Below are positions 10,919 to 60,251 of a DNA stretch of 64,000 nt, piece after piece. Below the pieces are notes generated by a model that had not been told where the DNA came from, did not search any database, and saw nothing but the letters and a program-made list of their open reading frames with translations. The translations under genes were made by a program, and so were the position numbers. The stretch spans positions 682,001 to 746,000 of the forward strand of contig JASPKZ010001230.1 in assembly GCA_030220185.1 (NCBI GenBank), in the 5' to 3' direction. The stretch comes from Diploptera punctata. Taxonomy: Eukaryota > Arthropoda > Insecta > Blattodea > Blaberidae. Each line of letters opens with the position of its first letter. Position 1 is the first letter of the stretch.

Positions 10919-11164
10919 ATTAATGAATGAGTCGATTCTTACATGGGAACTGCAGACAGAGACTAATCCCTGCTGCTGATTTCAAGAGTCATCCCTCTCA
11001 TCCTCAAACGACAACACGACTACCGGATTCTGTCGGCTGAGGATGAGAGGGTTGCCTCTTGAAAACTGCAGTTCCCATGTTTGAAAAATATGAACTAAGA
11101 TTAGAATCGACTCATTCATAAATTGAAGAACCTCATAATGTTATTTCCCATTAATAACTTATAA
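10919..11164 (+). mobile_element. Penelope-like fold-back element PLE-A
   Basis: A 10-bp target duplication (10909-10918 and 11165-11174) flanks it. Left and right arms are reverse complements around a loop near 11010-11035. The 3' terminus CCTCATAATGTTATTTCC is at 11131-11148. The plus strand carries a complete hammerhead core. Confidence 0.75.
11037..11074 (+). ncRNA. Hammerhead ribozyme motif in PLE-A
   Basis: Core CTGAGGA (11037-11043), helix II GAGAGG/CCTCTT, GAA at 11061-11063, helix III the palindrome AACTGCAGTT (11064-11073), predicted cleavage after C11074. All invariant positions are present. Helix III has no loop, so a dimer is more likely to fold than a monomer. Confidence 0.7.
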
Positions 11165-11699
11165 ACGTTCAAACGTGCTTCACAAGCATGTTCGAAACTG
11201 TGTATACAAACTTTGGTCAAAACAGCTTGAGGATTGATGGAAATTTCATCAAGCGTGATTGAACATGTCTATGGAAGCTTATGCAAGCTTAAGATTAAAT
11301 TAAAATGCTTCTTACCTCACCTCATATCCAGTCTTCTAATTAGACTGCGGTTTCAATGGCGGCTTCATCTTCAGAACTTTCTCGTCGCCTCGATTGTTCT
11401 CCGTCGACATTTTTAATTTTGAGAATAGGGAGTATTTATAAGTTTATTTGGCGGAGACAAGGGAACCACTCATTCATTTGTATTTTAATTCAATAATTAT
11501 TTATCGAAATTTCAAAATAATGCCCAGGCCCGGAGGGATGAACGAAATTACAACACATAATCTATGGTGTATACTTGGCATAATTACCTTGCATATATTT
11601 ATGCCTTCTCCAAGGCATGACAATCCTAGCAAGTCCTTAACCTACCAGATAGCTGCTGCAATTGCATCCATATATATTACTCGCAAATGTGTACGACCA

Positions 11700-11955
11700 T
11701 CTAATCAGTATAGAAGCAACATGTGGTCAGCATGTTGGCTCTTCCAGTCGTTATAGCTGGTTTTGTCAATCTGAACCTGCTACTAATTTTAGGTGTCCAG
11801 ATTCCTCATGATGTTGAGTGGGCACCGGTCCCATACTGCCCGAAATTCTATGAGTAAATATCTTTCCCCATGATGACTCGAGTCAGTGAAAGTCCCATAG
11901 CTCTTCACCAAGGCATCATGCCTTAAACGCTCGGCTATGGTTATTTTTACAATAT
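11700..11955 (-). repeat. SINE-3 copy
   Basis: The body GTGGGCACCGGTCCCATACT and the tRNA-like head (CCATAGCCGAGCG on the minus strand) match copies at 17526-17877, 39205-39650 and 46225-46530. Confidence 0.65.
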
Positions 11956-11969
11956 ATCGCCAGATTTCA

Positions 11970-12310
11970 TAGCCAAAGAGAGACGAACAGGCAGGTAAGT
12001 GGAGAAGGCTACATAACAGCAAAGCAGATGTAATAAGAACAATTAAAGTCTCATAGACTGTAATGGGCAGGACAAGTGGCAAAAATATGGATATGAAAAC
12101 TCTAGTAAGAAAACCAGAGGGTAGGTGAACCATGAATGAGGTGGAGTATAGGAAAACCAGATGGAAAGCACCCAATAGATAGGCCAATAATGAAGTGAAA
12201 AAATAACATGCACCTAGATTTGAGAGAAATAAATTATATAGGGGAAGATTGGAAAAATCTCAGAATAGGGATGTATGGAGAGCTTACATCAGCCAAAGCC
12301 AGTGAATCTT
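11970..12310 (+). pseudogene. LINE family A, decayed 3' part
   Basis: The plus strand holds the family A segments from RDEQAGKWRRLHNS to the REINYIGEDWKNL end, with an internal duplication and frameshifts. It ends near GCCAGTGAATC. Confidence 0.7.
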
Positions 12311-12817
12311 CATCTGTACTCAACATTTTCTAAACACAAACTGATGTTTGTGCAATAATGCTTATACATGTTGAGGTGACGGGTATTTATTTATACTTGC
12401 ACAAGCATAAGCTCGCTTGAACATGTGTACCCATTTCTACACCACTCCATTAAAAATAATGAAAACTCAGTTTGGTTAGTTTAGTTCATTAGTAATGTGC
12501 TTCTAATGTATTTCAAAATGTACATTTATACTCAACCTAGGTTGATCGGTAAATTTTAGTTTCACATTTTGAATCTTCGTTAATCAATTTGAGGATTCTA
12601 TGCCATGTATCAGTCTGCATGAATTCAAATAAAATAATCAAATCTAATCTAACCTATGTTTTTATTATAAATTTAATACATCTCACTTCAAATATAAAAA
12701 AAAAATCTTATCTAACCTAAATAAATATGTTGATAACTGGTTATAACAGAAACCTGAATGAACATGTTGGCAACCACATCTCTATAATGAATGTTATTCA
12801 ATAAGTACTGATATTTA

Positions 12818-13599
12818 ATAATTATCATAAGTAATGCCACGAGTGATTTCCAAATTATCGATAAATTCACGACTCACGAAGTGAGGACTATTTAACTCAT
12901 GCCCCAAATGGGAGTCAATGACCAATCACGTTTCAATGATTTCTGTTTTACAACCAATCAGAGTCGTGTTTCACGAAATATTTATCAGTGTTAGGATTAT
13001 CATATATTAAACAAAGCTCCTCCTTTTTAATATTCTGAACAGGTCTGACCGTTATTTTGCAGTGACTGAGCCTATAACAAATACGGCTACCAGATTGTAT
13101 ATAATAGTGCTTACATGTCAACATTTGTAGCAATTGATTATACCACCAAAAAAAGAAACCACTGTTTGCACTTTCTTAAATGTATTTTTTCCCAGGTAAT
13201 AATCGAGAAAAATATAATTGTCATATTTACATCATACGACATCAAAAATGAATTAATATACAGATTGATGTGTTTCATTTTTTCTCCACTAGAGAGCATT
13301 CTTACAATATTGCGTTCCTTTGGCAATAAATAGTATGATCTGGTTGCAGTGATAAACAAAAGAAGCAGTAGAAGCGTACCTATCGTTTCTCATTTGTTTT
13401 CAAACATCGCCGTTTACATTAAATATATAAATATTTTAAAATAACTATAGTTAAATAATGATTTGTGAGTAAACAGCTTAATTTTATTCGTTAAATAGTC
13501 CTAACAAATGCCACTCTTGATTTCCAAATTCTCTAGATAAATCATTGAAACGTGATTCGTCATTGACTCCCATTTGGGGCATGAGTTAAATAGTCAGTA
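12818..13599. mobile_element. Unclassified TIR element with copy at 42660
   Basis: Inverted ends of about 50 bp carry ACTATTTAACTCATGCCCC (12887) and its complement ending at about 13595. The interior matches the reverse complement of 42660-43305 nearly throughout. No transposase is recognisable, so this is probably a non-autonomous DNA element. Confidence 0.6.
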
Positions 13600-13807
13600 T
13601 AATCTATTAGCAACTAGTAACAAGATTCATGAACTGATACTTGCATAGACCAACAAAATGATTTATTATTAATAAAGGATTTTACTAGCAATGAAAGAAC
13701 AACTAAAATTAATTTCTAAATATATATCCATGTAAATGTCAATTCATTATACACAACACATAGGCCTGATACATCCTACTTATCAGGTCAATATTGGAAT
13801 TTTTTTT

Positions 13808-15072: not shown

Positions 15073-17082
15073 TTAACCCCTCAATGTGGGAGCATTTAAA
15101 TCCCCTGGCGGTTCCCAGCTGCGGGAGGAGCTCTCGGAAGGGTATTTAAATTTGTAAGTTACAATGTAAACATTCGTAAAAATTAAATATCTCGATTGAT
15201 AATTAAAATATAAAAATGAAAATTTCTACAGTTAAATGTTAGGCTATTATTAAGTTAAATGTGAGGTTAACTATAATAATTATAAATTACAGTAATATAA
15301 TTAACACATTTAATATAAATAAAATTTACAATACCTTAGAAATTAAGTTTAGTGTGATAGATTTTGAAACACCCCTCCACACACAATCCTGCTTCACAGT
15401 CCGGGCACCAAAACACGGTCTCTTTTCGTTTGTTGTTTTTGTAACATACAACACATCTTTTGCTGGGGAGGGCTTTATTTCCTCTTGGGGGTATTCTTTC
15501 TGGAAAATGCCTGCCAACTAATCGCGGTATTGTATTGTCAGTTGAATGACGTCCAGGAACCTTTCTTTCAACACCACCCCGATGTTCCGCAAGTAATGCT
15601 TCTGCAAGGTCAATGCGAAACTTGAGATGGTCCAGTTTATTTTGTTGAGAATTCTCCCTACAGATAATCATGCTATTTAGTACAGAAACATTCAGAAGAC
15701 GAAGAAATATTTTCATATACCACTTTTTTATTTTCTTTCTTTCCAACAAATATGCATGTAGCAATTGGTCTTTTAGGTCCACACCTCCCATATTGAAATT
15801 ATAATCCAGAACAGATTTTGGCTTTTCTTTTTCAGAGCCATTTTTTGTTACTTTACATGTGCTATCACTGTGATACGTAGATATCATAGTAACATTTTTC
15901 TTGTCATCCCATTTTAGCACTGAAATTGGACCAGAATGCTGAGCTACAATTTCCCCCTTTTTCAATTTTTTCTCCTTCACAAGTTTTGGTGTCTTTCCTG
16001 TTGAGACGCAATGTCCCCATACAGTCAGTTTTATTTGATTTTAGCGTGAGCGGTAATGACAGAGAATTATAATAGTTGTCCATCCATAAGGTGTAACCCT
16101 TCCCTAACAACGGTTCTGTATGTTTCATAACAATGGCTGATGTTTTTAGAGTTATCTCCAGTTGAAATGTTTGATCTAAAATTTTATCTTTCCCTGTATA
16201 AATGACAAAAGACCACAAATATCCGGTTGAGGACTCGCATAATTCAAAACTTTTTATACCAAATTTTGAAGCCTTCAGTGGAATATACTAAGAGACAGCC
16301 TCCCTCTCCATAATGTGAGAGACTCATCAATTGCAATGTTTTGCAAAGATAAGTATAGTGACTGAAATCTGCAATTTAGGTATTCAACTATAGGAAAAAT
16401 TTTAAATAGCTTGTGAGGGCCTTGGAATGAGTTCATGTTTTCATTGTTGTTGAAATGCAAGTATCTACAAATAGCTTCAAATATATCCAGTGAAATAACT
16501 GAACCAAAAATTGGAGTTGCTATTGTGGCATTCTTTGAAAAATAGGAACAAAAAGTAGGCTTTCGAACAATTCCCATTAGCATAAAAAGAGCTAGAACAA
16601 TGTAAATTTCATCTATTGTAGTCGGTTTCCAATCCCACACCTGAGAATGTCGTGGAAGAGGGAAAAATTGTTTTTTTATTTGCTGTTCAGCATACAAGTT
16701 AGTTTCCTTTACTATCATCTCCATTAGTTCCAACAAGAAAAATAATTTGAAAATGTTTATTCCTTCACTGATATTCACAGCAGCATTGACAGGGCCATGA
16801 TTTCCTAAAAATTGGTCTCTATTGCTGGTATAATTTTCCATATCCTCCCATACAAATACTGCGGTATCTGCCACGCCCCCCCCCCACCCCCACATGTTCA
16901 ACTCCATTATCACTTTCAATGTCATCTGTTATAAGTTCACGAACCGGCACATCATCACTTGAACTCGATTCAGTAGTACTAGATGAGAGGCTCAAACTAC
17001 TATTACTTAGTTCTTCGTTCAACCATCCTGAAATTTTCTCACTCTGATTATTTGTAGAGGCCACAGCGAAACTCATAAACAC
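15073..17082 (-). pseudogene. piggyBac-type transposase, frameshifted
   Basis: Four minus-strand segments (17082-16819, 16925-16275, 16218-15904, 15980-15336) in successive frames make one piggyBac transposase. The first is a Ser/Asp/Glu-rich N-terminus. The catalytic aspartates are all visible: NIAIDESLTLWRGRLS, LWMDNYYNSLSLP and NMGGVDLKDQLL. The C-terminal Cys-rich finger reads RCVVCYKN, FWCPDCEAGLCVEGC. Three frameshifts break it, one beside a run of about nine Cs at 16876. A TTAA at 15073-15076 followed by CCCCTCAATGTGGGAGC could be the 3' transposon end. The other terminus was not found. Confidence 0.88.
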
Positions 17083-17299
17083 TTGACTTCCACGCTCGTG
17101 CTAACAAGACTGAACAGAGCCCCTCGGTTATTTTAGAATTTCTTTTACACGTTTGGTGTCATATAAGTGTCACATATATCATTTTTAACAGGAAATGACC
17201 ACTAACCCAGCAACATACATAAAATTTGAAACTGTTTCATGGTTTTAAAAAAGAGAGCAATCTATATAAACAACTAGGAACTATATGAACAAAATAATA

Positions 17300-17877: not shown

Positions 17878-17991
17878 GCCATGGAGTTTATAATACAGTA
17901 AATAAATGAACACACTATATTTTAACGATTTTATTATTAATTTAACACTTCTCATAGAAGGATAAATTATATTTGAAGAGAAAATTTTTTC

Positions 17992-18064
17992 GCCTAGACC
18001 GGGACTCGAACCCAGGACCCTTGGCTTTCCGGGCCAAGTGCTCTACCAACTGAGCTACCGAGGC
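17992..18064 (-). repeat. tRNA-like unit of SINE-4
   Basis: 73 nt with acceptor-like GCCTCGG/TCTAGGC ends, box A TAGCTCAGTTGGTAGAG and box B GGTTCGAGTCC. The anticodon-arm region CTTGGCCCGGAAAGCCAAG gives a loop without the invariant U33. I treat it as a SINE promoter head, not a tRNA gene. Confidence 0.65.
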
Positions 18065-18394
18065 GAGTTACGATCTAGACGCAAATTTTTCTCTTATGTA
18101 CGTTGTAATTCCCTCACACTTGGCCCGGAAAGCCAAGGGTCCCGGGTTCAAGTCCCGGTCTAGGCGAAAAATTTTTCTCTTCAAATATAATTTATCCTTC
18201 TATGAGAAGTGTTAAATTAATAATAAAATCGTCAATAGAAGCCCTACTGGCTATAAAGTAGTGTTAAATTCCCAATAAAAGTCTTCTTAACTAGGAAGCC
18301 GCCATTTGCAAAGATAGAAGCTATGGTTTCAAGCATTTGGCGCAAGGGAATTACAACATACATAAGAGAAAAATTTGCATCTAGATCGTAACTC

Positions 18395-18467
18395 GCCTCG
18401 GTAGCTCTGTTGGTAGAGCACTTGGCCCGGAAAGCCAAGGGTCCCGGGTTCGAGTCCCGGTCTAGGC
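18395..18467 (+). repeat. tRNA-like unit of SINE-4
   Basis: A 73-nt near-identical copy of the unit at 17992-18064, with GTAGCTCTGTTGG in the A-box region. Confidence 0.62.
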
Positions 18468-18934
18468 GAAAAATTTTTCTCTTCAAATATACACTATATT
18501 TTTCTATAATGCCAGGGCAAATGAGACATGGATTATTGTCAGATATCTTTACTTACACAATAAGTGGAATGTCAGTGATGTATGTAAAATTTTATTGTCA
18601 ATATAAATTTGTAATTACAACTTTATGTTATATAACACATTTTATACAGTCCACATATAGAATAAAAATCAAAATAAGACTATTGTAGGGAATTATACAA
18701 TATAAAGCTGACTCAAGAAATAATTGCCTTGGTATTCTAAGTACAGTACAAACTTAATGAAGCACCAGGTTATAGTAATGGATGAAAATTAACTTTTTGC
18801 AGAAATGTTTTTAAGAAATAAAACAAATCTAACAAAAGTTTTAATAAAATTACAGTACAATTCTTAATTATGTCACTAATTTCATGTATCTAATTATAAG
18901 AAACACATAAGTACAGGAGTGAGTATTTTATTTT

Positions 18935-22838: not shown

Positions 22839-23220
22839 ATTTCAAAAAATTTAAAACAGATGCAAGATTACCAATTTTAAGTATTAAAATAATTCAATAT
22901 ATTGTTTGTGAAATTTAAAATAATAATAAAAGAAGACAACCAAAGCAAATATTTTTATGGACAACAAAGAAAAAGGACTAAGAGAGCAATAAAGGACAGT
23001 TGGAGAAAGAGTACTGAAGAAAAAAATGAAGGAGAGAAACATATATAGAGAGACTTGTGAAAGGATAAGGATTTGTGATGGTTAGGAATTGGATGACAAC
23101 GTAGATCATCACAACTGAATCCATCTATAAAATAGAATAGAGTAGTATTATTTGATTGTCATATTCTGAAGTTACTTATTTTAGTTTGAAAATGAGAAGA
23201 TAAATGAAAGAAATAATTCA
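21950..23220. other. Unannotated AT-rich stretch with CA microsatellite
   Basis: A CA dinucleotide repeat spans 22795-22834. No gene or named repeat seen elsewhere in it. Confidence 0.5.
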
Positions 23221-23230
23221 TATTTTAATT

Positions 23231-23540
23231 TATGTTGAGTTGTTTTTGACTCACCTCATACTTCTTAACTCCCTCACAGACTCGAGTTCCATCATTGCAT
23301 TTGTGACATTCTCAATGCTATATCATGATAACAACTGATGTCCAACAGCCTTCTCTCCTGCAGACCGACCTCCGTGCCCTCTGATGGCTGACCGACGAAC
23401 ATCCAAATCAATCCCCTCTCCTTTTCACCAGGTATTTCAAAATTTAGCATTGAGAATGTCACAAATGCAATGATGAAACTCGAGTCTGCGAGGAAGTTAA
23501 GAAGTATGAGGCGAGTCAAAAACAACTCAACATAATTTTG
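23231..23540. mobile_element. Penelope-like fold-back PLE-C
   Basis: The left arm (about 23231-23318) and right arm (about 23447-23537) are reverse complements ending in CTCACCTCATACTT and its inverse. The middle resembles the arm of PLE-D. The plus-strand hammerhead relic has TTGAGAA (23450-23456) and GAAAC with helix III palindrome ACTCGAGT (23478-23485). The 3' terminus is not seen. Confidence 0.6.
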
Positions 23541-23759
23541 TTTATTTTTTCTTTCACTCACCTCATACTTCATAACTCTTCTCAGACCCGGGTTTCGTCA
23601 CATCATTTGCGACATTCTCAATGCTGTGTCATGTTCACAACTGACATCCAACGGCCTTCTATCCTGTAGACTGACCTCCGCGCCATCTGATGGCTGACCG
23701 ACAAACTTCCGAATCAATCCCCTCTCCTTATAACCGGGTATTTCAAAATTCATAGTTGT

Positions 23760-24290
23760 TGTTTTTATTATTAATTTAACATTTCTCAATGAAAGATAAA
23801 TTAAATTTGAAGAGAAAATTTTTTGCCTAGACCGGGACTCGAACCCGGGACCCTTGGCTTTCCGGGCCAAGTGCTCTACCAACTGAGCTATCGAGGCGAG
23901 TTACGATCTAGACGCAAATTTTTCTCTTATATACGTTGTAATTCCCTATAGTCCCGGTCTAGGCAAAAATTTTTCTCTTCAAATTTAATTTATCTTTCAT
24001 TGAGAAATGTTAAATTAATAATAAAAACATCATTAGAGGCCTTACTGGCTTTTAAAGTAATGTTAAATTTCCAATAAATGTCTTCTTAACTAAGAAGCCG
24101 CCATTTGCAAAGATAGAAACAATGGTTTCAAAAGCATTTGGCAATAGGGAATTACAACGTATATAAGAGAAAAATTTGCGTCTAGATCGTAACTCGCCTC
24201 GATAGCTCAGTTGGTAGAGCACTTGGCCCGGAAAGCCAAGGGTCCTGGGTTCGAGTCCCGGTCTAGGCAAAAATTTTTCTCTTCAAATTT
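23760..24290. repeat. SINE-4 double insertion inside PLE-D
   Basis: The 13-bp duplication AATTCATAGTTGT (23747-23759 and 24291-24303) bounds a block with tRNA-like units at 23825-23897 (minus) and 24196-24268 (plus), again arranged as a hairpin with AGAGAAAAATTT flanks. Confidence 0.72.
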
Positions 24291-24502
24291 AATTCATAGT
24301 TGTGTTTTCATTCTTGCATATGTAATTTTTTTCCCCAAAAATGTACATATGCAAGAATGAAAACACAACTATGAATTTTGAAATACCTGGTTATAAGGAG
24401 AGGGGATTGATTCGGAAGTTTGTCGGTCAGCCATCAGATGGCGCGGAGGTCAGTCTACAGGATAGAAGGCCGTTGGATGTCAGTTGTGAACATGACACAG
24501 CA

Positions 24503-24539
24503 TTGAGAATGTCGCAAATGATGTGACGAAACCCGGGTC
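24503..24539 (+). ncRNA. Degenerate hammerhead motif in PLE-D
   Basis: TTGAGAA replaces CTGANGA (two core changes). Helix II GTCGC/GTGAC, GAA at 24528-24530, helix III palindrome ACCCGGGT (24531-24538) and C24539 are kept. Probably no longer active. Confidence 0.45.
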
Positions 24540-24732
24540 TGAGAAGAGTTATGAAGTATGAGGTGAGTGAAAGAAAAAATAAACAATATTAAAAAACCTC
24601 ATAGTGTTATTTCCTACCCACATAACTTAAATAATTCATAACCTATATTATTATAAATTAACCCTCTCATTATATTGAATTATTTTTTTACAATTTTATG
24701 AAATTCTACAAATTAAAAAAAAAAAGACATGT

Positions 24733-27230: not shown

Positions 27231-28008
27231 ATTCTTACCTTGTAGGAAAAAATTGCACACACTTTTATGGAGAAATTCAGGCAATAGAGCTAGCACTAAA
27301 ACAACTCCTATACAGAATAAATACATTGCAGAGAGCAGCTGTTTTAAGTGACTCAACCTCAGCTATACAAGCTATAACAACACATAATTCTCCAATCTCT
27401 TGTAAAGTGTAGGAAATGAAAAAAAAAAAAAAAAAAGATCATAAGATTAATATAACAAATTTGGGAATTTTTACATTGAGGTTTTCTCAATAAGAATCAA
27501 ATGAATCGTGAATTCTTCTTAGATCATAAGATTATTGACTAAACAAAATAAAATTATTCCACTCTAATGGATATCTTCTCATTGTGGGATTTATGGAAAT
27601 GAAACGGTGGATCTCTTAGCAAATAGGGTACTAAAATTTTACGGAAAACGAATCTGCTCTATCATTCTGCAAAAATTATTAAAAGAAACTTCTAAAAAGA
27701 ATTGATGGAACCCTTTAAAACACAAAGTAATGAGAAATCATGGGTGGCTATCTTACAGAATAAAAACTTAATACCAAGGCACAAAGTAGTAGCAACATTC
27801 AGACCGTGAACAGGCCATGACTATCTGCCAGCACACCTACACAAAATTGGAATCTTCAACTCTCCAAATTGTATACTGTGTCAAGATAATAACTCAAAAA
27901 TGGACAAAGACCACCTTACTTATTTTAGGAATTCTCACTATGAGGTATATTCATTAAGGTAGAATATGTTTATCACTCACCTCATATTGTTCTTCTTATT
28001 TGATTATA

Positions 28009-28045
28009 AACTAGTTTCGGAACATAGTTTCTGTTCCATCCTCAG
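28009..28045 (-). ncRNA. Hammerhead ribozyme motif, PLE-E left arm
   Basis: The exact inverted copy of the right-arm motif, with CTGAGGA at 28045-28039 and GAAAC at 28018-28014 on the minus strand. Confidence 0.72.
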
Positions 28046-28217
28046 TATCATCACGACCGTTGTTCTGTCGTCTTGAAGAGTTGTCCTTCTCTCCTTCCAT
28101 TGGCTGACTGAAAAACCTCGAAACCAGGTCATTCTCTGGTTTCGAGGTTTTTCAGTCAGCCAATGGAAGGAGAGAAGGACAACTCTTCAAGACGACAGAA
28201 CAACGGTCGTGATGATA

Positions 28218-28254
28218 CTGAGGATGGAACAGAAACTATGTTCCGAAACTAGTT
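28218..28254 (+). ncRNA. Hammerhead ribozyme motif, PLE-E right arm
   Basis: CTGAGGA (28218-28224), helix II GGAACA/TGTTCC, GAA 28245-28247, helix III from AACTAGTT, cleavage near T28254. Helix I pairs GATGATA (28211-28217) with TATAATC (28255-28261) at six of seven positions. Confidence 0.75.
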
Positions 28255-28602
28255 TATAATCAAATAAGAAGAACAATATGAGGTGAGTGATAAACATATT
28301 CTACCTTAAAGACCACCTTATTGATTGCGCAGCTCTCAAGATGTCACCTGCAAGAACTTGGCTGGACTCTATTGGGGAGCAAGAAAGCAAATGGAACACA
28401 TCCAAGTAAATGGGCATTGGACTACTACAAGGAATCCATTTTAAGAGGAAACCTCGCATCATTTTGCCGCCGTCTCTGTGAGCAGTACGACTGCAATGTG
28501 GGAGACAAGTTGTACACAACATCCTAGCAGTTAGTTGCTTCAGTGTGTTGTAGTGGGACGCATGTCACTTGTTGTCGTTGTTACATAAGAAAGTAATCGA
28601 AA

Positions 28603-30195: not shown

Positions 30196-30765
30196 GCATG
30201 CATATTAATTCAGTGCATTCACTAATATCATGACATCATCAAAAGTAACAGAGGAGGAATTAAAATTCTCTATAGTTCAAAATAAGTTATATATATCCTT
30301 GGGTTCTAGTTTCCTTATTATTGCCGTAAAACTAAGGTTGAGGGATTGCATCATACTAATTTTACTCTTTCTACCATCACCTAAAATCCAGTGATAGCAA
30401 TTACTTTAGTAAGCCTTGGCTCTTCTGAGCTAGAGTATCATAGATTTTTTTAAAGATATTTAATATATACATTCTCTCATTTCTTAGAACATATTTCCCC
30501 TCATATAATAAGAATTTTTCCATATTAATTTTTTATTTAAAGTAATTCAAAATAAAACAGGATACAGTTTTATTGTAATTGAATTATAGTGTGAGTACCT
30601 ATGCAGAAATATCAGGGCTCTCAGAAAAAGGAGAGGACATTAATACAGTACTCCAAACATTCCATAGCAGTTAATGGTTTCACAAATATTTTTACAAACT
30701 TTATTCAATCAAATTTTTTTGAGAATGGAAAACATCTTACCTCAAATTAATGTTGGTTCAATTTG

Positions 30766-30801
30766 AACATGTTTCGATGTATTCTTCTATATCATCATCA
30801 G
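30766..30801 (-). ncRNA. Hammerhead ribozyme motif, PLE-F left arm
   Basis: Minus strand: CTGATGA (30801-30795), helix II GATATA/TACATC with one mismatch, GAA, helix III within AACATGTT, cleavage near T30766. All invariant core bases are present. Confidence 0.72.
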
Positions 30802-32503: not shown

Positions 32504-33705
32504 ACAATTTATGAAAGTATTCTATAGGTATCTTGCACCATTTTCCATGGAGAATTTCTTCTGGGTCTTTAAGAGATAAAGGAGGTGAAAATTTTGTCCT
32601 CAGTTTTCAATTCACACCACACTGCCCCAATAATATTCAGATCTGGAGATTGACGTGGCCATGAACAGATCAGAATTTAGATAAATAAATGAATCACTGA
32701 ATTTTATGATCCTCAAATCAGTCTTTTAACAAACCAGCAGTGTGAGTAGGGACATTGCTATCTTGAAATATAGCATTACCTGACGAGAACAATGTCTGTA
32801 ACATTGACTGCACAGTCTCCTAGAATTCTGCCATAGACCTTAGTTGTCTCTTTGCCATTATCTGTGACAATAAAACCTACAGAATTCCAGGATATTGCTG
32901 TCCAAATCATTATTGACCCTCCATATTTAACTGTAGGCACTAAGCATTCTGAGTTGTAAGATTCTTTTGGTGCTCTCCAGACATATATATTACCAGTAAT
33001 AAGGGAAAAGTGTATATTGACTCATTAGACCATATTATATTTTTCCAACCATCAGCAATCCATGACTTGTGTTCATAATGTCACAGATTTCACTTTACTG
33101 GGTTCCTGTCTGTAATCAATGGTTTATTATTTGCTGCTCTGCCATATATATATATAAGCCGTGTTGCAGGTACATTTTCGTGTGCTCAAGATATGTGTGA
33201 TATCACTCTTTTCCACTGATGTCTATTTGTATACTGTGCCAACCTTTCCTGAATTTTCCCTTCCCTCTCCACTTCCTTTTATTATGTGCGCCGGTTTACG
33301 GTTTCCTCCAGCTTTCTGAAACAAGGAATTAGCATGGGAGGAACTAACTTTTGTTTGGGAGAAAATGCTGTATGGATTGAGTGTCATTGGTATGCATTTT
33401 TATTATTATATCATTTTGTTAAACATCCAAAGGACTGCAAAGCAAGAAGATTATATCATTTGTTACTTATGATTTCACTTTATATTTGTAAAGAAGAAGT
33501 TAATTATTTATTTATATTATTTAAATCATTATTGACTCACATATACTTATTTATTTAAATATATCTATTCATTTTACACGCTAGTTTGTTATTTATGTAG
33601 TAGATCATTTGAATCTCAGTCTAGCAGTAGTTCAGTACAATATTTAAGTATCCCTGTCAAGACTCATGATTATAGAACATTTATTAACTCTAATTAGATT
33701 ATTTA

Positions 33706-33840
33706 ACTTTCACAGGGAAAGAACACTATGAGGTTTAATTTAAGAATTAAATTAATGTTTTTATTACCTCACCTCATATCCTATTTCTTCTAGAAGAAAA
33801 AGGATATGAGGTGAGGTAATAAAAACATTAATTTAATTCT
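33706..33840 (-). mobile_element. Penelope-like fold-back PLE-G (deleted core)
   Basis: The 16-bp duplication CTAATTAGATTATTTA (33690-33705 and 33841-33856) flanks it. It shares ends with PLE-J (54710) but the centre is only TCTAGA, so ribozyme and inner arm are deleted. The terminus GGAAAGAACACTATGAGG is at 33717-33734. Confidence 0.8.
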
Positions 33841-34095
33841 CTAATTAGATTATTTATCATAATTGATTACTTGTACCTAGTAGTTACCCATGTTAAAGTA
33901 ATGAAACATGTCCGTGAACATTTTGGGCCCAGCCACGGATATACTCTGCTTAGATACTTGTCTTTTAGTTTTCTCTTGTTACGCGACATATTATGTTAAG
34001 TCACACTGATGGACATTTTGTTACGCTATAATCTCTATGTCTGTCATATTTACCTATTTGTTAGAGAGCTTACTGGATACCCTGAGTTATTTAGG

Positions 34096-35072: not shown

Positions 35073-35160
35073 GTCTGCTTTCATCTTACCTCGTAATTAT
35101 GAGGTAAGATGAATGCAGAGAAAACTTATTTATTAAGAAGAACCTCATAATGTTACTTCC
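35073..35160 (+). mobile_element. Penelope-like remnant PLE-H
   Basis: Minimal arms ATCTTACCTC and GAGGTAAGAT, then terminus CCTCATAATGTTACTTCC (35143-35160). It directly abuts the mariner element. Confidence 0.65.
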
Positions 35161-36067: not shown

Positions 36068-36270
36068 TACATGAAAATAAATGTATCAGAAAATGTGGTG
36101 TTTCCAATATTTTGTTTACTTCGTGTATGTAAGCTTATATCATCTTCAATACTAATAAAATTCATAAATTCCATTGATGTGATAAGTCATAAGATAAAAA
36201 TTAAAATGTACATGTTGGCAGGTGCCGTCATCCTCAACTTCGTTAAATAATGTATTTAAAATATTAATTG

Positions 36271-36302
36271 GAGGCCTTTCGGAAGTTAACTTCCATCATC
36301 AG
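36271..36302 (-). ncRNA. Hammerhead ribozyme motif, element Q left arm
   Basis: Minus strand: CTGATGA (36302-36296), helix II GGAA/TTCC, GAA, helix III palindrome AGGCCT, cleavage after C (36271). All core bases present. Confidence 0.72.
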
Positions 36303-36453
36303 CAAGATGAGTATGTGTTGTATTTAAGATGCTGTATACGTCAATGGTCTTGATACGTTGCCAGTAGGAGTTCCTACTGCTACTAGTTGTTGTATTTAAG
36401 ATGTTGTAAACATTGATGGTCTTGATGTGTCGCCAGTAGGAGTACTCATCTTG

Positions 36454-36485
36454 CTGATGATGGAAGTTAAATTCCGAAAGACCTC
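36454..36485 (+). ncRNA. Hammerhead ribozyme motif, element Q right arm
   Basis: CTGATGA (36454-36460), helix II GGAA/TTCC, GAA 36476-36478, helix III A-G/C-T with a two-base loop, cleavage after C36485. Confidence 0.72.
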
Positions 36486-36764
36486 CATTTAATAATATTT
36501 TTAAAACATTATTTTAATAAAGTTGAGGACGACGACACCTGTCAACAGGTACATTTTAATTTGTATCTTATTATATCATTTTTACAGTTAACATTAATAC
36601 TAATTCAATGCTTCCAGATATTGTGTGTCAAGTTTTATCTTGATATAAGTATAAACAACTGAAAAAAATGGAAGCCTGGAAATCTGAAAATGTAACATAT
36701 AAATGTCTTTCATTCAAAGGATTTAAGTGAATAATAAATGAATGTGAAAACTCTTTATTCATAC

Positions 36765-41110: not shown

Positions 41111-41849
41111 GAAGGGATGAAGAGAAATTAAGCATCTGGGAAGACTTATACTGCACTGAAGCCATGATGAAGAGAGTGGATGAAAGCGAACTACAACCTT
41201 AGACATATGGTGACACATTTTGCGATAAATGTATTGTACCACAAAATATGTGTAACAAAGTCATTTTGCTCACCGAATGATAAGTGTATTTGTTAACTTT
41301 TTGGCAAAAAGTATGAAAGGTACCACTTAATAAAATGCATAAAAAGAGTGAAATCGCTTGCTGAATATAGCAGAGATCTAAACCAATCTTTGCACAAATG
41401 TGCACATTCCAGTCATTATATTATTAATTCTGGTTATGCTACAACATCATGCATCATAAATATTTGGTCATATAACACAATTAAACATTAGTTTAATAGA
41501 CATATGCAGATCTAATGAATCTGGTAAATTACCCAAGATTTTTATGACCTAATATTATTGAGACCATAATAAGTAGGCCTATTTAAATTGGAAAAAGTCT
41601 AGTATTCGTCACTCACAAATTTTTCCAAGTTCTACAGAATTGTGCAAGATGCTCGAATGTTTAATGTAGCTTTCACAATATGGCAGTGAAATCGGTGTTA
41701 TCTACTTTTGCAATAAATTCCCAAATGTTTATAATAACCTAACAAAATTAATTACATGCATATTATACTGAAATTAATACTGGGAAGTAAACATTATGAG
41801 GTAATAATCATTTAAAATTCACCGGAGAAAATTTTTTGAAAACTCACCT

Positions 41850-41884
41850 AACCATGGTTTCGGGTAAAGTCTCACCAACTTCAG
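41850..41884 (-). ncRNA. Hammerhead motif in PLE-L (A9 changed)
   Basis: Minus strand: CTGAAGT (41884-41878, last A is T), helix II GGT/ACC, CGAAAC, helix III palindrome ACCATGGT (41858-41851). It lies just after the endonuclease on the same strand, where Penelope hammerheads are expected. Confidence 0.55.
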
Positions 41885-41959
41885 TCAAAACTCCGACTGA
41901 TAAAATACTTCCGTTGTCAACCTTCCATTGTCACCATCTTCTGTGCTGCCATCTGGGTT

Positions 41960-42560
41960 GAATTTACAAACTTTGAAATCAAATTTTGTTTGTTAGGAAT
42001 ATCAAAATTCATCGATCTATATTTATTTTTCAGAATGTATATTTCTCCCAAACCGTCGATTCTAAAGATTTATCCAATTGTTTTAAAAGTTTTGCTTCTC
42101 TTCCAATTTTACGATGTTCTACTAAACTATGTGCAGCAATTGTAGATTTTTCAATTTCACAATTTTTAATATTTCTAAAATGTTCTTTAGTACAAGTTTC
42201 CAAATTCCTTTTCGTTTTTCTTATTTAAACCTTACTACAATCATTACAACTTATTTGATAAATTTCAGATTTCTTTCTGTCTAGGACATTAACTTTTTTA
42301 TTAGTACTTAGAAGATTCTAAGTACTATATTTATTGGTGCCAAAATAATACTGTATTTGTCAATTTTTTTAAATTTCTTATGCATTTCAGGATGGTAAGC
42401 AACTTTCTCAAATTTTTTTCTTTTCTTTGTAATTTTATAGAGTAGAAATTCTCTAAGTCTTTTTTTCTGTTTGAATTTCTTTAACTTACATGTAATTAAC
42501 TTCTTATCAAAACCACTTAATCTAGCTGTGTTTAAGATATGATTATATTCTTTCATGAAA
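41960..42560 (-). pseudogene. Penelope-like GIY-YIG endonuclease end (PLE-L)
   Basis: The minus strand reads EIYQISCNDCSKV, a stop where YIG should begin, then RKTKRNLETCTKEHFRNIKN, then TIAAHSLVEHRKIG. This is the Cys-pair plus GIY-YIG signature of Penelope-type endonucleases. Upstream, 42556-42308 encodes a Lys-rich linker. At least one stop and a frameshift. Confidence 0.78.
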
Positions 42561-42659
42561 TTTTCTTCATTTAATGGGATATCTATTCAACAATCTATGT
42601 ATTAGGCTATTAAATATTGCATGCTCATGTGCAATGTGATTAAATCCTGATGTTTCTAT

Positions 42660-43305
42660 ATAATTATCATAAGTAATGCCACGAGTGATTTACAATTTAT
42701 CTAGATAATTTGGAAATCAAGAGTGGCATTTGTTAGGATTATTTAAGGAATAAAATTAAGCTGTTTACTCACAAATCATTACTTAAATATAGTTATTTTA
42801 AAATATTTATATATTTAATGTAAACAGCAATGTTTGAAAACAAATGAGAAATGTTGTTTTATTTGTTCGCAACCAGATCATATTTATTGCCAAATATAAT
42901 CACAATATTGTAAAAATGCACCCTAGTGGAGAAAAAATTAAACACATCATTACAGGTTATTAATTAATTTCTGATGTCCTATGACGTAAATATGTCAATT
43001 ATATTTTTCTGCAAAGTTAATTCCTCGGAAATAATACATTTAAGAATGTGCAAACAGTGGTTTCTTTTTTTTTTATGGTTTAATCAATTGCTACGAATGT
43101 TTTTCTATTATATCTTGCAAGCAGAATCTGGTTACATTCGTGCAGTATATACACAATCTGGCAGCCACTTGATTAAATGAAAGCGATAAAATTAAAGTGA
43201 TAAAATTGAGGTGAAAAACGACTGTGATTGGTTGTAAATCAAAATTCATTGAAATGTGATTGGTCATTGACTGGCATTTGGGGCATGAATATCCTTTCTA
43301 CATAA
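42660..43305. mobile_element. Copy of the 12818-13599 element inside PLE-L
   Basis: Reverse-complement match to 12890-13595 over nearly the whole length, with one inverted end deleted. Confidence 0.6.
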
Positions 43306-43578
43306 ATAAAATTCAATTTTTTTGTGTCTGATCATTCCTAATTAAATATGGATCCAAGAACAGGATTTTATTTTATTTTTCTAATTATTCTATAGTAGAT
43401 TTCACTGATTCATCATGAAGGTTTTAAAGCATCTTCAATATATTTAGAATTTATTTTTGAAGATATCAACATGAAGAGCACGAAATTTATGAGGTGAGTT
43501 TTCAAAAAATTTTCTCCGATGAATTTTAAATTACATGCATATTATTTAATAAACTATAGAGTAATCTTGTGTACACTA

Positions 43579-50119: not shown

Positions 50120-50165
50120 CAGAATCTCCAATAACAATAACTTTAACTTTATCTATTGCAGCCAT
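50120..50165 (-). CDS. RABL3: RABL3 exon 1 (start codon, first half of P-loop)
   Basis: The ATG is at 50165-50163 and the exon encodes MAAIDKVKVIVIGDS plus the first base of a Gly codon. The donor is G|GTGTGT at 50119. The reading matches the start of the RABL3 family, and the split of the P-loop GDSG/VGKT across the intron fits exon 2 exactly. No in-frame upstream ATG of note was seen. Confidence 0.93.
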
Positions 50166-50854: not shown

Positions 50855-50978
50855 ATGGGTGAAGAGAGATTAGTGACAGAAGTCCCAAGCAGTCTCAAAC
50901 AACTTGCACGATTAGTTGTTAGAGGATTCTACACTATAGAGGATGCTTTAATAGTTGACATGTTGGTTAGAAATCCTT
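50855..50978 (+). CDS. GTF2E1: GTF2E1 exon 1 (winged-helix N-terminus)
   Basis: The ATG at 50855 is preceded by AAGA. The exon encodes MGEERLVTEVPSSLKQLARL, then VVRGFYTIEDALIVDMLVRNP, and ends one base into a Cys codon. The donor is CCTT|GTAAGT at 50979. It matches the family start TEVPxxLKxLAxxVIRGFY. A pyrimidine-rich tract ending CAG at 50806 is a possible 5'UTR intron acceptor. Confidence 0.94.
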
Positions 50979-51184
50979 GTAAGTATTTGTTTATGAATGA
51001 TACAGGGCCAATAGTGCAGTAGTAAAGGAACCAGGACCCAAAGATGTATGCTGTTTTTTTCAATACTCCCTGATAATAATATACTCAAAGAAATTCTAGT
51101 ATTTCCTGTATATGGTAATTTAAATTTGTGTTGTAACCTAATCAGGAAAAATATTGCTCTGTTATTAATATATTTTATAGTTTC

Positions 51185-52160: not shown

Positions 52161-52302
52161 CACTGATATGTTGTGGAAGTTTCTGAGAAAATGCATCGAG
52201 CATTTAAACCTGAAGCGAATGGGTTAATAAGATGATGTCATTAATAGTGAGTGGAGAACATATTTTTATCGACTCACCTCATATGATTTCAAATTTCTTT
52301 GA

Positions 52303-52339
52303 TACCAATGGTTTCAGACAATATCATGTCCCTCTTCAG
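52303..52339 (-). ncRNA. Hammerhead ribozyme motif in PLE-M
   Basis: Minus strand: CTGAAGA (52339-52333), helix II GGACA/TGTCT, GAA, helix III ACC-ATT-GGT, cleavage near A52303. Helix III changes to ACC-GTC-GGT in the right arm (52756-52764), keeping pairing. Confidence 0.72.
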
Positions 52340-52429
52340 CCATCGTTTCCACTGATGAAATTCTGTGATTGTTGATTTCTCTAATGATATCACCTCTTGT
52401 GCTGCCATCTTTCGTTGGGATTATAAACT

Positions 52430-52730
52430 TTGTAATTCAATTTTTATCCACCTGAATATCGAAGTTCATAGATCGATATTTATTCTTCTGAATGAATATC
52501 ATTCCCCAAATTGTCAATTCTAACGGTTTATCCAATTGTTTCAAAAGTTTTGCCTCTTTCAATTTTATGATGTTCTAGCAAACTATGTGCGGCAATTGCT
52601 GATATTTCAATTTCACAATTTTTAATATTTCTAAAATGTTCTTTAGTGCGTGTTTCCAAATTCCTTTTTGTTTTTCCCATGTATACTTTGCTACAATCAT
52701 TACAATTTATTTGATAAATTCCAGATTTCT
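52430..52730 (-). pseudogene. Penelope-like GIY-YIG endonuclease end (PLE-M)
   Basis: The minus strand reads GIYQINCNDCSKVYMGKTKR, then NLETRTKEHFRNIKNCEIEI, then AIAAHSLLEHHKIER and a frameshift. The YQI and YMG elements correspond to the GIY and YIG of the nuclease, with the preceding Cys pair (CNDC) usual for Penelope elements. Confidence 0.82.
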
Positions 52731-53283
52731 TACTGTCTGATATTGATATTGTCTGAAACCGTCGGTATCAAAGAAATTTGAAATCATATGAGGTGAGTCG
52801 ATAAAAATATGTTCTGCACTCACTATTAATGATATAACCTCATAATGTTTACTTCCCAATATTAATTTAAATATAAGATGATGTCATGTTCGTCTTTTCC
52901 CTTTTTATCGTCATTATGCCTCACACAACTTACCTAGATTGGTCATATATTGAATATTAGCACTGTTCAACTGAGAAGACAAGAGATAGTAAGAGAGAAA
53001 GAAATCTTGGTATATCACATAATATTGCTGGTCCAACTATAACCACATTCAGTTTTCTCTTTTATTCTAATCCTACACCGTTTTATTTATTTATTTTTTT
53101 TTCATTCTGTACCTTCCCTATTGAGATTGGTATCTTCAACATGTGATATTTTATTCTATCCCTTCTTATCATGTAGCATATCTGAAAAATAATTCAGAAT
53201 GATTTGTTGTGCCCATAAAGAGATTTTTAAGAAATACACACTTTTTAGACACAATTTCACTAGAACTGAACAAAATTATTACT

Positions 53284-54605: not shown

Positions 54606-54801
54606 TTTATGTAGAATAATTGTTTTATGTATGGTTCCCTTGATATTTTAAGTTAAGCAAGAAGAGGAAAAGTTACCACATAGTGTTTGGATGCAGACAT
54701 ATGTTAATTATTTAACTTTCACAGGGAAAGAACACTATGTGATTTAATTTAAGAATTAAATTAATGTTTTTATTACCTCACCTCATATCCTTTTTCTTCT
54801 A

Positions 54802-54834
54802 GACCGCAGTTTCGGAGCTTATCTCCATCGTCAG
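54802..54834 (-). ncRNA. Hammerhead ribozyme motif, PLE-J left arm
   Basis: Exact inverted copy: CTGACGA at 54834-54828, GAAAC at 54813-54809, cleavage after C (54802). Confidence 0.76.
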
Positions 54835-54926
54835 TAGCCTCTGGTCGATCGGTGTTATGTCGTTTCTTGGTAGAAGTAAGAAGAAAACCGCCAAGAAACG
54901 ACATAACACCGATCGACCAGAGGCTA

Positions 54927-54959
54927 CTGACGATGGAGATAAGCTCCGAAACTGCGGTC
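54927..54959 (+). ncRNA. Hammerhead ribozyme motif, PLE-J right arm
   Basis: CTGACGA (54927-54933), helix II GGAG/CTCC with a five-base loop, GAA 54948-54950, helix III AC-TGCG-GT, cleavage after C54959. CTA/TAG pairs start helix I. Every invariant base is present. Confidence 0.78.
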
Positions 54960-55139
54960 TAGAAGAAAAAGGATATGAGGTGAGGTAATAAAAACATTAA
55001 TTTAATTCTTAGATATGTTAATTTCTGAGGTTCTCTCTTCCATATTCAATGTCTGCCTGGACATTTAAGCTTGTTTAGTTGCATTGATTATATCTCGCAG
55101 TACAGTTGCTAATAAGAGTGTCTGCGTTCTGAAACAGGA

Positions 55140-57710: not shown

Positions 57711-58101
57711 ATGAGAGTTCACTTAAAGTGAAAATTTAAACATCACTCTACCAGCCATAATTTTCAAATTTTTGCAACAAAACTTGTTATATGCCATTGA
57801 AATAAAAAAAAAATCTAAAAAAAAACAGGAAAAATCCAAGCTTTAGGAGTAGGGAAGTCTTAATTTAAAATTGTTCTAGCGGTCGCACTTTAACTAAATA
57901 CATACAATTTAATTAACAAAAGAGATATATCAGTAAACCAGTAAAATCAGGTCATAAATTTGACTTGCTGAGGAATTTGCTTAGTTTACACAGTTTCTGT
58001 TCTGCATGTTGATCTTTTTTTAATACGTAACTGGCTAGTTTTACACAAATGCTGATTCTACTAATCTAAACTCTCAATGAGAAATAAATATCATTTTATG
58101 T

Positions 58102-58209
58102 TATGTAGATAGGAAATAACACTATGAGGTTTTTTAATATTGTTTATTTTTTATTATTTCACTCACCTCATTATGAAGTATGAGGTGAGTGAAATAATAA
58201 AAAATAAAC
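58102..58209 (-). mobile_element. Penelope-like fold-back PLE-N (108 bp)
   Basis: The 15-bp duplication AATATCATTTTATGT (58087-58101 and 58210-58224) flanks it. It has terminus GGAAATAACACTATGAGG (58112-58129) and a minimal hairpin of CTCACCTCA and TGAGGTGAG, with no ribozyme. Same arm sequence as PLE-D. Confidence 0.84.
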
Positions 58210-58424
58210 AATATCATTTTATGTAACTATATCTGCTGAAGTTATATGAAAATTATAAATAGATCACACTCACATCAATCATTTACAGTGTTTGCAAAAC
58301 TCCAAGCATCAAATGCAGTGAATTGACATTTGAAATACAGATTTTGGAGAGAGAAAAAAAACTAAAATCTGAGTCTGGTGTATATTTTTTCTCAGTAACT
58401 GATTTTGGGTTCACCATATCATAG

Positions 58425-58680: not shown

Positions 58681-58800
58681 ACCAACTGGCACTCTAATCA
58701 ATTAAGCTTTCATAAAATGATTGCACTACAATTACTGGAGATTCTTTCGCCAAATTAGTATGACACAACTTACAGCATGTAACATTTTAAAGAAAAATGG

Positions 58801-58922
58801 CTGAAGTTGGGAGGAATGCCTCCTAAAACTGCAGTTCTGTTCTTGAAGAATACATAGTTTATAAGGTGAGATTTTTACGACTCACTAGTTATTTATTAAT
58901 TGAAAGCCTCAATGTTATTTCC
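58801..58922 (+). mobile_element. Penelope-like 3' end PLE-O with hammerhead relic
   Basis: CTGAAGT (58801-58807), helix II GGGAGG/CCTCC, TAAAACTGCAGTT (helix III as in PLE-A), then AAGGTGAG and terminus CCTCAATGTTATTTCC (58907-58922). Not a fold-back: a simple 5'-truncated copy just upstream of the GTF2E1 exon 2 acceptor. Confidence 0.65.
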
Positions 58923-58970
58923 CATAATTAATTTATGAAATTTTAATTAATTTTTTATCTTTTCTTTTAG

Positions 58971-59137
58971 GTATGAAAGAGGATGACATCTGTGAACTTC
59001 TCAAATTTGAACGAAAAATGTTGAGAGCTCGAATATCAACGTTAAGAAATGATAAATTTATTCAAGTACGGCTAAAAATGGAAACTGGTCTAGATGGAAA
59101 AGCACAGAAAGTTAATTATTATTTTATTAATTATAAG
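58971..59137 (+). CDS. GTF2E1: GTF2E1 exon 2 (winged helix)
   Basis: The acceptor is TTTTAG|GTATGAAAG and the donor TATAAG|GTAGAG. The 167 nt complete the Cys codon and encode MKEDDICELLKFERKMLRAR, then ISTLRNDKFIQVRLKMETG and the conserved NYYFINYK end. A poly-pyrimidine tract precedes the acceptor. Confidence 0.95.
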
Positions 59138-59344
59138 GTAGAGACATATTTATGTTTAATACTATTTTCACTATGCTTGGTAAATATGAATGAAGGAGAA
59201 AAAATTACATTTCATTGTCACAATAATATTGCCTTTGACTCTATTAAGATCATCTGTTAAAAAATTGTATCAACTTTAAAATATAGATTTTGACAAACAA
59301 TCCCACGTGTATCAAATTTGATTGTAATTAAGTTTTACAATATT

Positions 59345-60200
59345 ATGCAATTGTACTTATCATCATCATCATCCATGCAAGTATTAGGTCATGTGGCGTG
59401 TTATGATCTCAAAGAGGAATTTTCCATCCAGAGCTTTTTTGGACATTCCAGTGATCTTTTGCCTTGAGGGCAGTAAGGAAGCATGGCTTTTGGAATTCTA
59501 TGAGATGGCATTCATTGAAGATAGGCTTTCCAGTTGTTCTGGTAGTATATGGTAGAGAATGGGTTCTACATCCAATTCTTCCATAATTTCCTCATTTCTT
59601 TTATAGTCCCACTTTGTATAGCCTGCTGTACGATGCATAAATCACAACTCATTTGCTGTTATTCGACTTTCATCTCTTCATCGTATTGTCCATGCTTCAC
59701 TACCACATCTTAATACTGGTCTTGCGAGAACCTTATAAAGCTGTAATCTTGTGTTCTTTTGTACTAAAGATGGTTTCATTGTAGTGTTAATTATCGCCAT
59801 TGTTTTTTGTGAAATTTGTTTTTTTTTATATATCATCTTCATCTTGAAATGTTAAATTATAACCCAAATAATTAAATTCATTTATTTGTTCTAAAATTTC
59901 ACAATTTTACTTGTCAATTAGTATAATGTTAAGAAACACCAATATCTTAAAAGAATTGAAGACTACGCCAATTTTGGAATATATTAAACAGTACCCACTA
60001 AATTGGAAACACCATCTAGAAAGAATGAGTTCAAATCGGATCCCCAAAGCTGTTTATAATTATATACCAAGAGGACGAAGATCACTGGGCCATCCTATGA
60101 AACGCTGGAGGGAAAATTTTCTATAGGATCGTAACAGGCCTTGGCCTAATACTTGGAAGGAAGAAGAAGATTAGTATAATGTTAAGAAATGAAGTTACAT
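59345..60200 (-). pseudogene. LINE family B-like, older copy
   Basis: The 3' end with TCATCATCATCATC is at 59358-59374. The minus strand encodes decayed text of the LINE B tail. A younger LINE B copy lies within it at 59937-60169. Confidence 0.65.
59937..60169 (+). pseudogene. LINE family B, young 233-bp insertion
   Basis: A perfect 20-bp target duplication (59917-59936 and 60170-60189). The plus strand reads LKELKTTPILEYIKQYPLNW, then HHLERMSSNRIPKAVYNYIP and RGRRSLGHPMKRWRENFL, then the 3' end GGCCTTGGCCTAATACTTGG. Confidence 0.85.
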
Positions 60201-60202
60201 GT

Positions 60203-60251
60203 AATATTAAAATTAAACCTCATTGTGATTTTCCTTATAAAAGTTCAGTTC
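60203..60251 (+). mobile_element. 49-bp Penelope-like 3'-end-only insertion (PLE-R)
   Basis: The 11-bp duplication AAGTTACATGT (60192-60202 and 60252-60262) brackets 49 bp with terminus CCTCATTGTGATTTTCC. Same subfamily and size as 39326-39374, inserted 84 bp before GTF2E1 exon 3. Confidence 0.82.

Follow-up and report, generated by a model that had tools for sequence, protein, structure and literature searches.

Hammerhead ribozyme motifs in fold-back insertions of probable Penelope-like origin in the cockroach Diploptera punctata

Overview of the locus

The window analyzed here is a 64,000-nucleotide stretch of the Diploptera punctata genome (assembly GCA_030220185.1, contig JASPKZ010001230.1, positions 682,001 to 746,000 of the forward strand). 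Thirteen insertions in it were examined, and the inverted-repeat (fold-back) arms that an earlier note, made from the sequence alone, had described around hammerhead ribozyme motifs are indeed present. Taken as a whole, the data make it very probable that these are short, truncated insertions of endonuclease (EN)-containing Penelope-like retroelements, with the hammerheads brought along. Positions are those of the window; individual insertions are named in Table 1.

Hammerhead motifs in the window

The whole window was scanned with a descriptor comprising CTGANGA, a stem II of at least 3 bp (a one-base bulge being optional) and GAAA. This returned precisely nine matches (11037+, 28218+, 28045-, 30801-, 36302-, 36454+, 52339-, 54834- and 54927+), and the earlier note had both positions and strands right. 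Dinucleotide shuffles (n = 300) gave a mean of 0.34 matches and a maximum of 3, and a chance origin was rejected. The window motifs contain the type I hammerhead core CUGANGA / GAAA / UH, and in all nine an extra unpaired base, U in eight of them, lies between A9 and stem II. They do not represent nine independent events, because three pairs (28045/28218, 36302/36454 and 54834/54927) are each the two arms of one insertion; six insertions account for them all. Near-miss motifs, also claimed previously, are present at 11374- (where stem II is broken), ~30996+, ~41884-, ~55310- and ~58801+. Four more motifs, between 23.3 and 24.5 kb (T23 and T24 in Table 1), had been overlooked because their core reads TTGANAA, the U3-A8 variant of what we call the T family.

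Rfam hammerhead models gave no match in the window, either at the gathering threshold or at E<10, an outcome that the earlier note had itself named as decisive against its claim. The likely cause is the combination of a minimal stem III with the bulged base. Given this silence, we built our own model (R1) from 22 copies, none of them in the window, though some belong to families that also have window copies. R1 reports 12 window sites at E<0.05: seven of the nine motifs, the decayed 11374 motif and the four U3-A8 sites. The families of the 11037 and 30801 motifs were omitted from training, as the aligner had displaced them by one base; these two motifs (A11 and C30 in Table 1) are those that R1 recovers weakly or does not list.

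Core pair, helices and dimer potential

Core positions 3 and 8 were tallied with both left free, while TGA, A9, a stem II of at least 4 bp and GAAA were required, so that decayed copies are under-sampled. Among 99 copies from 58 loci, 49 carry U3-A8, 45 carry C3-G8 and five carry other combinations. Positions 3 and 8 form a Watson-Crick pair in 94 of the 99 (permutation mean 48, maximum 70) and in 72 of 77 distinct strings (permutation mean 37). An earlier and looser tally of 77 copies, with stem III required and 3 and 8 again free, gave C-G 39, U-A 32, G-C 4, A-U 1 and U-C 1; the four G-C rows have stem III strings unlike those of the other rows. Przybilski and Hammann reportedly observed, in 2007, cleavage with any Watson-Crick 3-8 pair.

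The full hammerhead structure is 89.1% paired, compared with 66.7% in shuffles and 28-45% in slid versions. The rows used for covariation were selected on the 3-8 pair, stem II and stem III. Stem I, which played no part in this selection, is 90.9% paired; both sides vary in two of the three pairs that make it up. Covariation supports all three hammerhead helices. Stem III is self-complementary, an unpaired middle base being allowed, in 74 of the 99 copies versus 8.0% of 5,109 control GAAA sites. It does so with 15 sequences, among them ACCCTGGGT, ACTGCAGT, AACTAGTT, ATCGCGAT, ACATGT and ATCTAGAT. This self-complementarity suggests ribozymes that could act as dimers.

The two core types may also have interchanged. 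In a tree of 35 endonuclease pieces (78 residues), U3-A8 copies form one tight clade, and others (L109 and L072) lie beside C3-G8 copies from the window, L076 and L097. This tree, built from short and decayed pieces, midpoint-rooted and without support values, weakly hints at two or more C3-G8/U3-A8 switches.

Anatomy of the insertions

The arms share a common order. Reading outward, the end of the Penelope frame (in longer copies) is followed by the hammerhead, the motif TATGAGGTRAG, 28-38 bases and, on one side, the tail ACCTCATARTGTTNTTTCC, at which the insertions end. In window copies TATGAGGTRAG lies 14-22 nt past the predicted cut, and by its letters GAG/GTRAG looks like a 5' splice site. 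The tail is matched 12 times in the window with up to 3 mismatches, versus 0.19 expected, and TATGAGGTGAG 46 times with up to 2 mismatches, versus 15.5 expected. The same tail scan places the one-sided tail in F54, K33, B28, J58 and E52. The ends of the tail can pair, TATGAGGT with ACCTCATA.

Target duplications, which the earlier note had ascribed to the insertions generally, could be recovered for only part of them. They are clear, at 11-20 bp, in six of the 13 (28.0, 33.7, 41.8-43.5, 52.2-52.9, 54.7-55.0 and 58.1 kb; scores 11-17) and marginal in three (11.0, 30.8 and 36.3 kb; scores 8-9). The best score among 300 random flank pairs was 10; some of the tested flanks were larger than these control pairs.

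Two GIY-YIG remnants had been placed just upstream of a ribozyme, in the insertions at 41767-43529 and 52242-52872. Pfam recognizes the one at 52.4-52.7 kb above its cut-off (Table 1), and this is the only part of the element's domain content that Pfam finds in the window. The piece at 41.9-42.3 kb is null by Pfam, yet at the DNA level it matches the recognized remnant with 83% identity. A short conserved frame (roughly R-F-F/V-G/S-Q-P-x-x-G) also lies upstream of the hammerhead in several families (27976-28287, 30736-31061 and 23533-24591); in longer genomic copies it comes after the endonuclease.

The whole B28 transcript (27935-28310) is predicted to form one long hairpin of -326.6 kcal/mol, which should sequester both ribozymes. 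For this reason the opposed pairs are probably passengers of the insertion mechanism.

Parent element and genome-wide abundance

A single genomic copy (L111:2213-3481) carries a reverse transcriptase (RT; RVT_1, E=3.2e-7) and a GIY-YIG domain (E=1.4e-7), both above the Pfam cut-off, in one shared frame of 423 aa. The marks of an EN-containing Penelope-like element are seen here: RT and GIY-YIG in one frame (in this copy), head-to-head inverted ends with an optional one-sided tail, and target duplications of variable length.

Exact tails number 32,920 in the 3.12-Gb genome (16,614 + 16,306), with none in the reversed control. Strict hammerhead patterns, in which stem II is unenforced, match 46,788 times for C3-G8 (control 2) and 40,479 times for U3-A8 (control 8). 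The earlier note had called a single 64-kb locus of this kind unusual. Elements of the same kind occur tens of thousands of times across the genome, and special status for the stretch was rejected; the window is tail-rich, with 4 exact tails versus ~0.7 expected from the genome total.

The form of these copies was read from 96 of the first 100 tail places (4 omitted), all on contigs C1-C4 and therefore not a random draw, with 90 loci read. Fold-backs, whose median span is 227 bp, account for 61 of the 95 tails sampled. Among 36 sampled fold-backs with a one-sided tail, 28 reach a target-duplication score of at least 9, versus 3.8% of 209 mismatched flank pairs; duplications therefore flank most sampled fold-backs as a whole. 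The inner loop is no longer than 12 nt in 23 of 66 two-head fold-backs (window copies included) and no longer than 30 nt in 38, compared with 9 of 330 random stretches at the 12-nt limit. From these scores and short inner loops, a fold-back is mostly one insertion event, and both of its arms often end at almost the same position in the element.

An expanding non-autonomous population had been suggested. Fold-backs are the commonest form among the sampled tails, as this would have it, but their truncation points vary widely. Such variation looks like recurrent abortive products of longer parent RNAs rather than copies of a short element that propagates itself. Among 24 gap-limited places of the F54 family, three centre strings exactly repeat that of another place and one more is a single base away from doing so; a degree of re-copying or of duplicated assembly is therefore conceivable. 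At two sampled loci (L034 and L047), what stands upstream of an exact tail is, by eye, tRNA-like instead of a Penelope end; these joins may be other RNAs captured by the Penelope machinery.

A possible insertion route

If the insertions are of Penelope type, the reaction likely involves: nicking of AT-rich DNA by the enzyme; reverse transcription beginning within the tail stem; and formation of the second arm in the same event, primed on the opposite strand of the target or produced by a cDNA that folds back and copies itself. The result would be two truncated 3' ends joined head to head. The coupling of arm lengths makes independent priming on the two target strands insufficient by itself, while copy-back on the first cDNA, or a shared 5' end of the template, would couple them. 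Penelope inserts are described with inverted pseudo-long terminal repeat (pLTR) borders, a tail and a target duplication, and Arkhipova and colleagues proposed self-priming for palindromic junctions (excerpts of PMC3846280). The Anolis enzyme acts on both target strands, each of which it cuts and extends, and starts within the RNA (excerpts of PMC11167929). The hammerheads would be carried along and, if active at all, would act as dimers, through the self-complementary stem III in tandem or paired parent RNAs, not in the fold-back.

Is cleaved RNA a template?

A bolder proposal gives the ribozyme a part in this route. Here, cDNA of ribozyme-cleaved RNA would be the source of many short fold-backs: RT runs off the cleaved 5' end, which makes the cut the point where the arms join. 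In K33 (33738-33850), two F54-type tails are joined at CTTCTAGAAG, with the centre no more than 2 nt from the predicted F54 hammerhead cut. Taken alone as proof of cleavage, K33 was downgraded once the sampling limit (total gap of at most 30) was modeled.

A genome search for F54-family fold-backs, requiring exact 12-nt inner arms and that gap limit, found 24 (control 0). Twenty distinct fold-backs were tested against a null that models the limit, with three identical centre-string repeats, the window copy and one substituted copy dropped. Arm ends fall within -2..+1 of the predicted cut in 22 of 40 cases (null 9.5), and at least one end does so in 14 of the 20 fold-backs (null 8.8, p=0.018). 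Both ends do so in eight (null 0.65), a figure inflated by a null that assumes independent arms, when the inner-loop data suggest coupling. Position +1 is moreover the inner bound of the search, inside which ends are invisible; without it, 16 of 34 ends lie at -2..0, the window copy and substituted copy being counted in and the three repeats again dropped.

The excess rests on one family. In the mixed-family sample (214 ends), 12 ends lie at -2..+3 and 10 at +9..+11, giving no unique peak, and structured RNA could also halt the enzyme at the predicted site. In the Anolis system, as the available sections of PMC11167929 report it, no RNA ends were seen at the cut site and cleavage was unneeded in vitro. 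The pile-up in the F54 family is suggestive of cleaved templates, an unreplicated lead; as the source of many short fold-backs, cleaved RNA is a tentative and rather doubtful candidate. If it were true, the Penelope hammerhead would gain a role in the insertion cycle, where those sections of the Anolis in vitro study found none.

Alternative explanations and opposing evidence

In T-family elements, L111 among them, a minimal type I hammerhead and the 3' end of the frame overlap, and translated C-termini extend into the motif. The letters could then be kept only as code for the Penelope protein C-terminus. In that family CTG-AGG and TTG-AGA both encode Leu-Arg, so coding demands no joint change at positions 3 and 8, yet nearly all copies across the families keep the pair. 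Stem III palindromes, too, vary in sequence and remain self-complementary. Conservation for coding only is consequently improbable.

Inverted repeats with target duplications would equally be expected of DNA-transposon fold-backs or miniature inverted-repeat transposable elements (MITEs) that had picked up Penelope ends. Here, both the length of the duplication and the inner truncation point vary, and the tail is one-sided in the five insertions named above; variable duplications with a one-sided tail are Penelope anatomy as published (excerpts of PMC3846280). MITEs were considered and rejected as most unlikely. Just as remote, and likewise rejected, is a metazoan retrozyme, in which small hammerhead repeats in tandem give rise to circular RNA and which the insertions recall in being short, mostly non-coding and low in G+C with a type I hammerhead: the copies are inverted rather than direct, and none of the 18 Tandem Repeats Finder rows in the window lies over a hammerhead.

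The preferred reading, truncated Penelope-like insertions with hammerheads brought along, also has evidence against it, beginning with the Rfam result above. Minimum-energy folds of five single-arm pieces are not hammerheads, and their stability is about that of shuffles (z -0.1 to -0.9). Two of five covariation measures do not exceed shuffles: pairs changed on both sides (7, shuffles 6.5) and further pair types (15, shuffles 17.4). Seven of the 13 window insertions lack a clear target duplication, and none is seen in four of them (21.1, 23.2-23.5, 23.5-24.6 and 35.1 kb; scores 5-7). Among the sampled genomic copies, 34 of 95 tails were not scored as fold-backs and 8 of 36 fold-backs fall short of a duplication score of 9. 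No complete element was traced with both ends.

Neighboring features

Several other features share the window. tRNA-like sequences lie at 17968-18491, 23799-24294 and 48941-49013 (Rfam tRNA, 49.8-58.9 bits); the fold-backs at 18.0-18.5 and 23.8-24.3 kb that bear such sequences are repeats of their own, and the second of them is nested in T24. Adjoining the T23/T24 cluster, 24736-25086(-) is likely a host gene encoding one of the small subunits of an RNA polymerase (Pfam Zn_ribbon_TFIIS, E=1.2e-19). Nested long inverted repeats at 46771-52181, with arms of 160-205 nt (92-96%) ~5 kb apart and kin stretches near 2.3-4.9 kb, form a separate repeat family. Broken frames at 15339-17100(-) and 35256-35771(+) resemble piggyBac-type and mariner-type transposases; one piece run through Pfam gave no match.

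Table 1. Insertions and hammerhead motifs in the window (R1, our hammerhead model; TD, target duplication)
Feature	Position	Strand	Remarks
Fold-back F54 (two inverted Penelope 3' ends, head to head)	54699..55023		11-bp TD; intact-core hammerhead in both arms
Hammerhead, C3-G8 core, F54 left arm	54797..54839	-	R1 E=1.8e-11
Hammerhead, C3-G8 core, F54 right arm	54922..54964	+	R1 E=1.8e-11
Fold-back B28	27906..28322		Arms 177 nt, 99%, loop 8 nt; 15-bp TD, 1 mismatch
Hammerhead, B28 left arm	28002..28050	-	R1 E=6.4e-9
Hammerhead, B28 right arm	28213..28261	+	R1 E=6.4e-9
Fold-back T24, U3-A8 family	23533..24614		Nested tRNA-like fold-back; tail 24596-24614; TD not clear
Hammerhead, U3-A8 core pair (TTGAGAA), T24 left arm	23580..23626	-	R1 E=4e-11
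Hammerhead, U3-A8 core pair, T24 right arm	24498..24544	+	R1 E=4e-11
Fold-back T23, kin of T24	23205..23560		TD not clear
Hammerhead, U3-A8, T23	23445..23491	+	R1 E=2.2e-10
Hammerhead, U3-A8, T23	23274..23320	-	R1 E=1.2e-7
Truncated Penelope element E52, inverted end	52227..52887	-	15-bp TD
GIY-YIG endonuclease remnant of E52	52398..52738	-	Pfam E=1.3e-6
Hammerhead of E52, downstream of endonuclease remnant	52298..52344	-	R1 E=0.0011
Truncated Penelope element G41	41750..43545		Perfect 17-bp TD; endonuclease remnant 41942-42282(-)
Decayed hammerhead of G41	41850..41884	-	Core CTGAAGT, stem III ACCATGGT
Fold-back D36, family with another tail	36189..36571		TD marginal
Hammerhead, D36 left arm	36253..36307	-	R1 E=0.016
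Hammerhead, D36 right arm	36449..36494	+	R1 E=0.013
Fold-back C30	30704..31114		Tail 31096-31114; TD marginal
Hammerhead, C30 left arm	30765..30801	-	Descriptor match; unlisted by R1 at E<10; C30 right arm decayed at position 8
Fold-back A11	10909..11176		Tail 11130-11148; TD marginal
Hammerhead of A11, 10-nt self-complementary stem III	11032..11079	+	R1 weak, E=5.8
Decayed hammerhead, F54 type	11338..11379	-	R1 E=0.045
Miniature fold-back K33	33688..33858		20-bp TD, 1 mismatch; arms start <=2 nt from predicted F54-family cut site
Miniature fold-back J58	58087..58226		17-bp TD, 1 mismatch; tail 58112-58130
Miniature fold-back R35	35085..35160		Tail 35142-35160; no TD seen

Comparison with known systems

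Pattern scans of viral contigs first gave a single match, on a contig with frames of phage-like appearance and no DNA in common with the window at E<1e-5; after that they gave no further match. The scan of genome contigs gave 28 stretches in bacterial records, judged from their titles to be chance, and a plasmid search gave zero matches. In the open-licence literature, no paper was found that joins "Penelope-like" with "fold-back" or "hammerhead" with "U3-A8" and, by title, none that studies Penelope hammerheads in a cockroach or termite. Termite genomes carry type III hammerheads, according to the available part of PMC7936874.

The closest relatives are the EN-containing Penelope/Poseidon elements: the Pen families of Adineta vaga, PAc of Anolis and Penelope of Drosophila virilis (PMC3846280 and PMC11167929, both in excerpt). 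These share RT and GIY-YIG in one frame, head-to-head inverted ends, a ~30-nt tail, a target duplication and a hammerhead near the end. The putative tail stem described here is reminiscent of the AC-rich stem where the Anolis enzyme begins (PMC11167929). Unlike in those elements, the fold-back is here the main sampled product, and copies run into the tens of thousands. The hammerhead's place in the frame also differs: it overlaps the 3' end in the T family, whereas in Anolis PAc it overlaps the start codon, which begins at stem II (PMC11167929). As in published Penelope hammerheads, known to us through excerpts of citing papers, stem III is minimal, the order is type I and the motif lies inside the element's terminal repeats; the extra base between A9 and stem II may set the window motifs apart from them.

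The core variants have precedents as well. Natural U3/A8 hammerheads were reported in 2011 ("several hammerhead ribozyme examples") by Perreault et al., who describe swap ribozymes as proven active in vitro; a palindromic, dimer-permitting stem III appears in the legend of their Fig. S8 (excerpts of PMC3088659). The swap in itself is thus not new, and dimer action is known in amphibian retrozymes (excerpts of PMC7229834). The present motifs resemble those of Perreault et al. in that the natural swap and a dimer-ready stem III both occur. They differ in that a single genome holds the two core pairs in similar numbers, in a far larger natural sample. These near-equal populations are a natural test of how well the core tolerates exchange of the pair.

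In the available sections of the Anolis study, cleavage was dispensable for insertion by the purified enzyme in vitro, with no reads ending at the cut (PMC11167929). With fold-back ends by the tens of thousands, spread over many families, the use of the hammerhead to Penelope elements becomes a matter of counting: a cut site can be predicted for every family, and its junctions will be found either gathered at that site or not. Since the Penelope literature already describes inverted ends set head to head, tails and hammerheads, this is not a new system. The original observation is real, its kind was correctly identified, and it is mostly accounted for by published Penelope biology. What goes beyond that biology is the scale, together with the core genotypes that keep the pair and the lead on the cut site.

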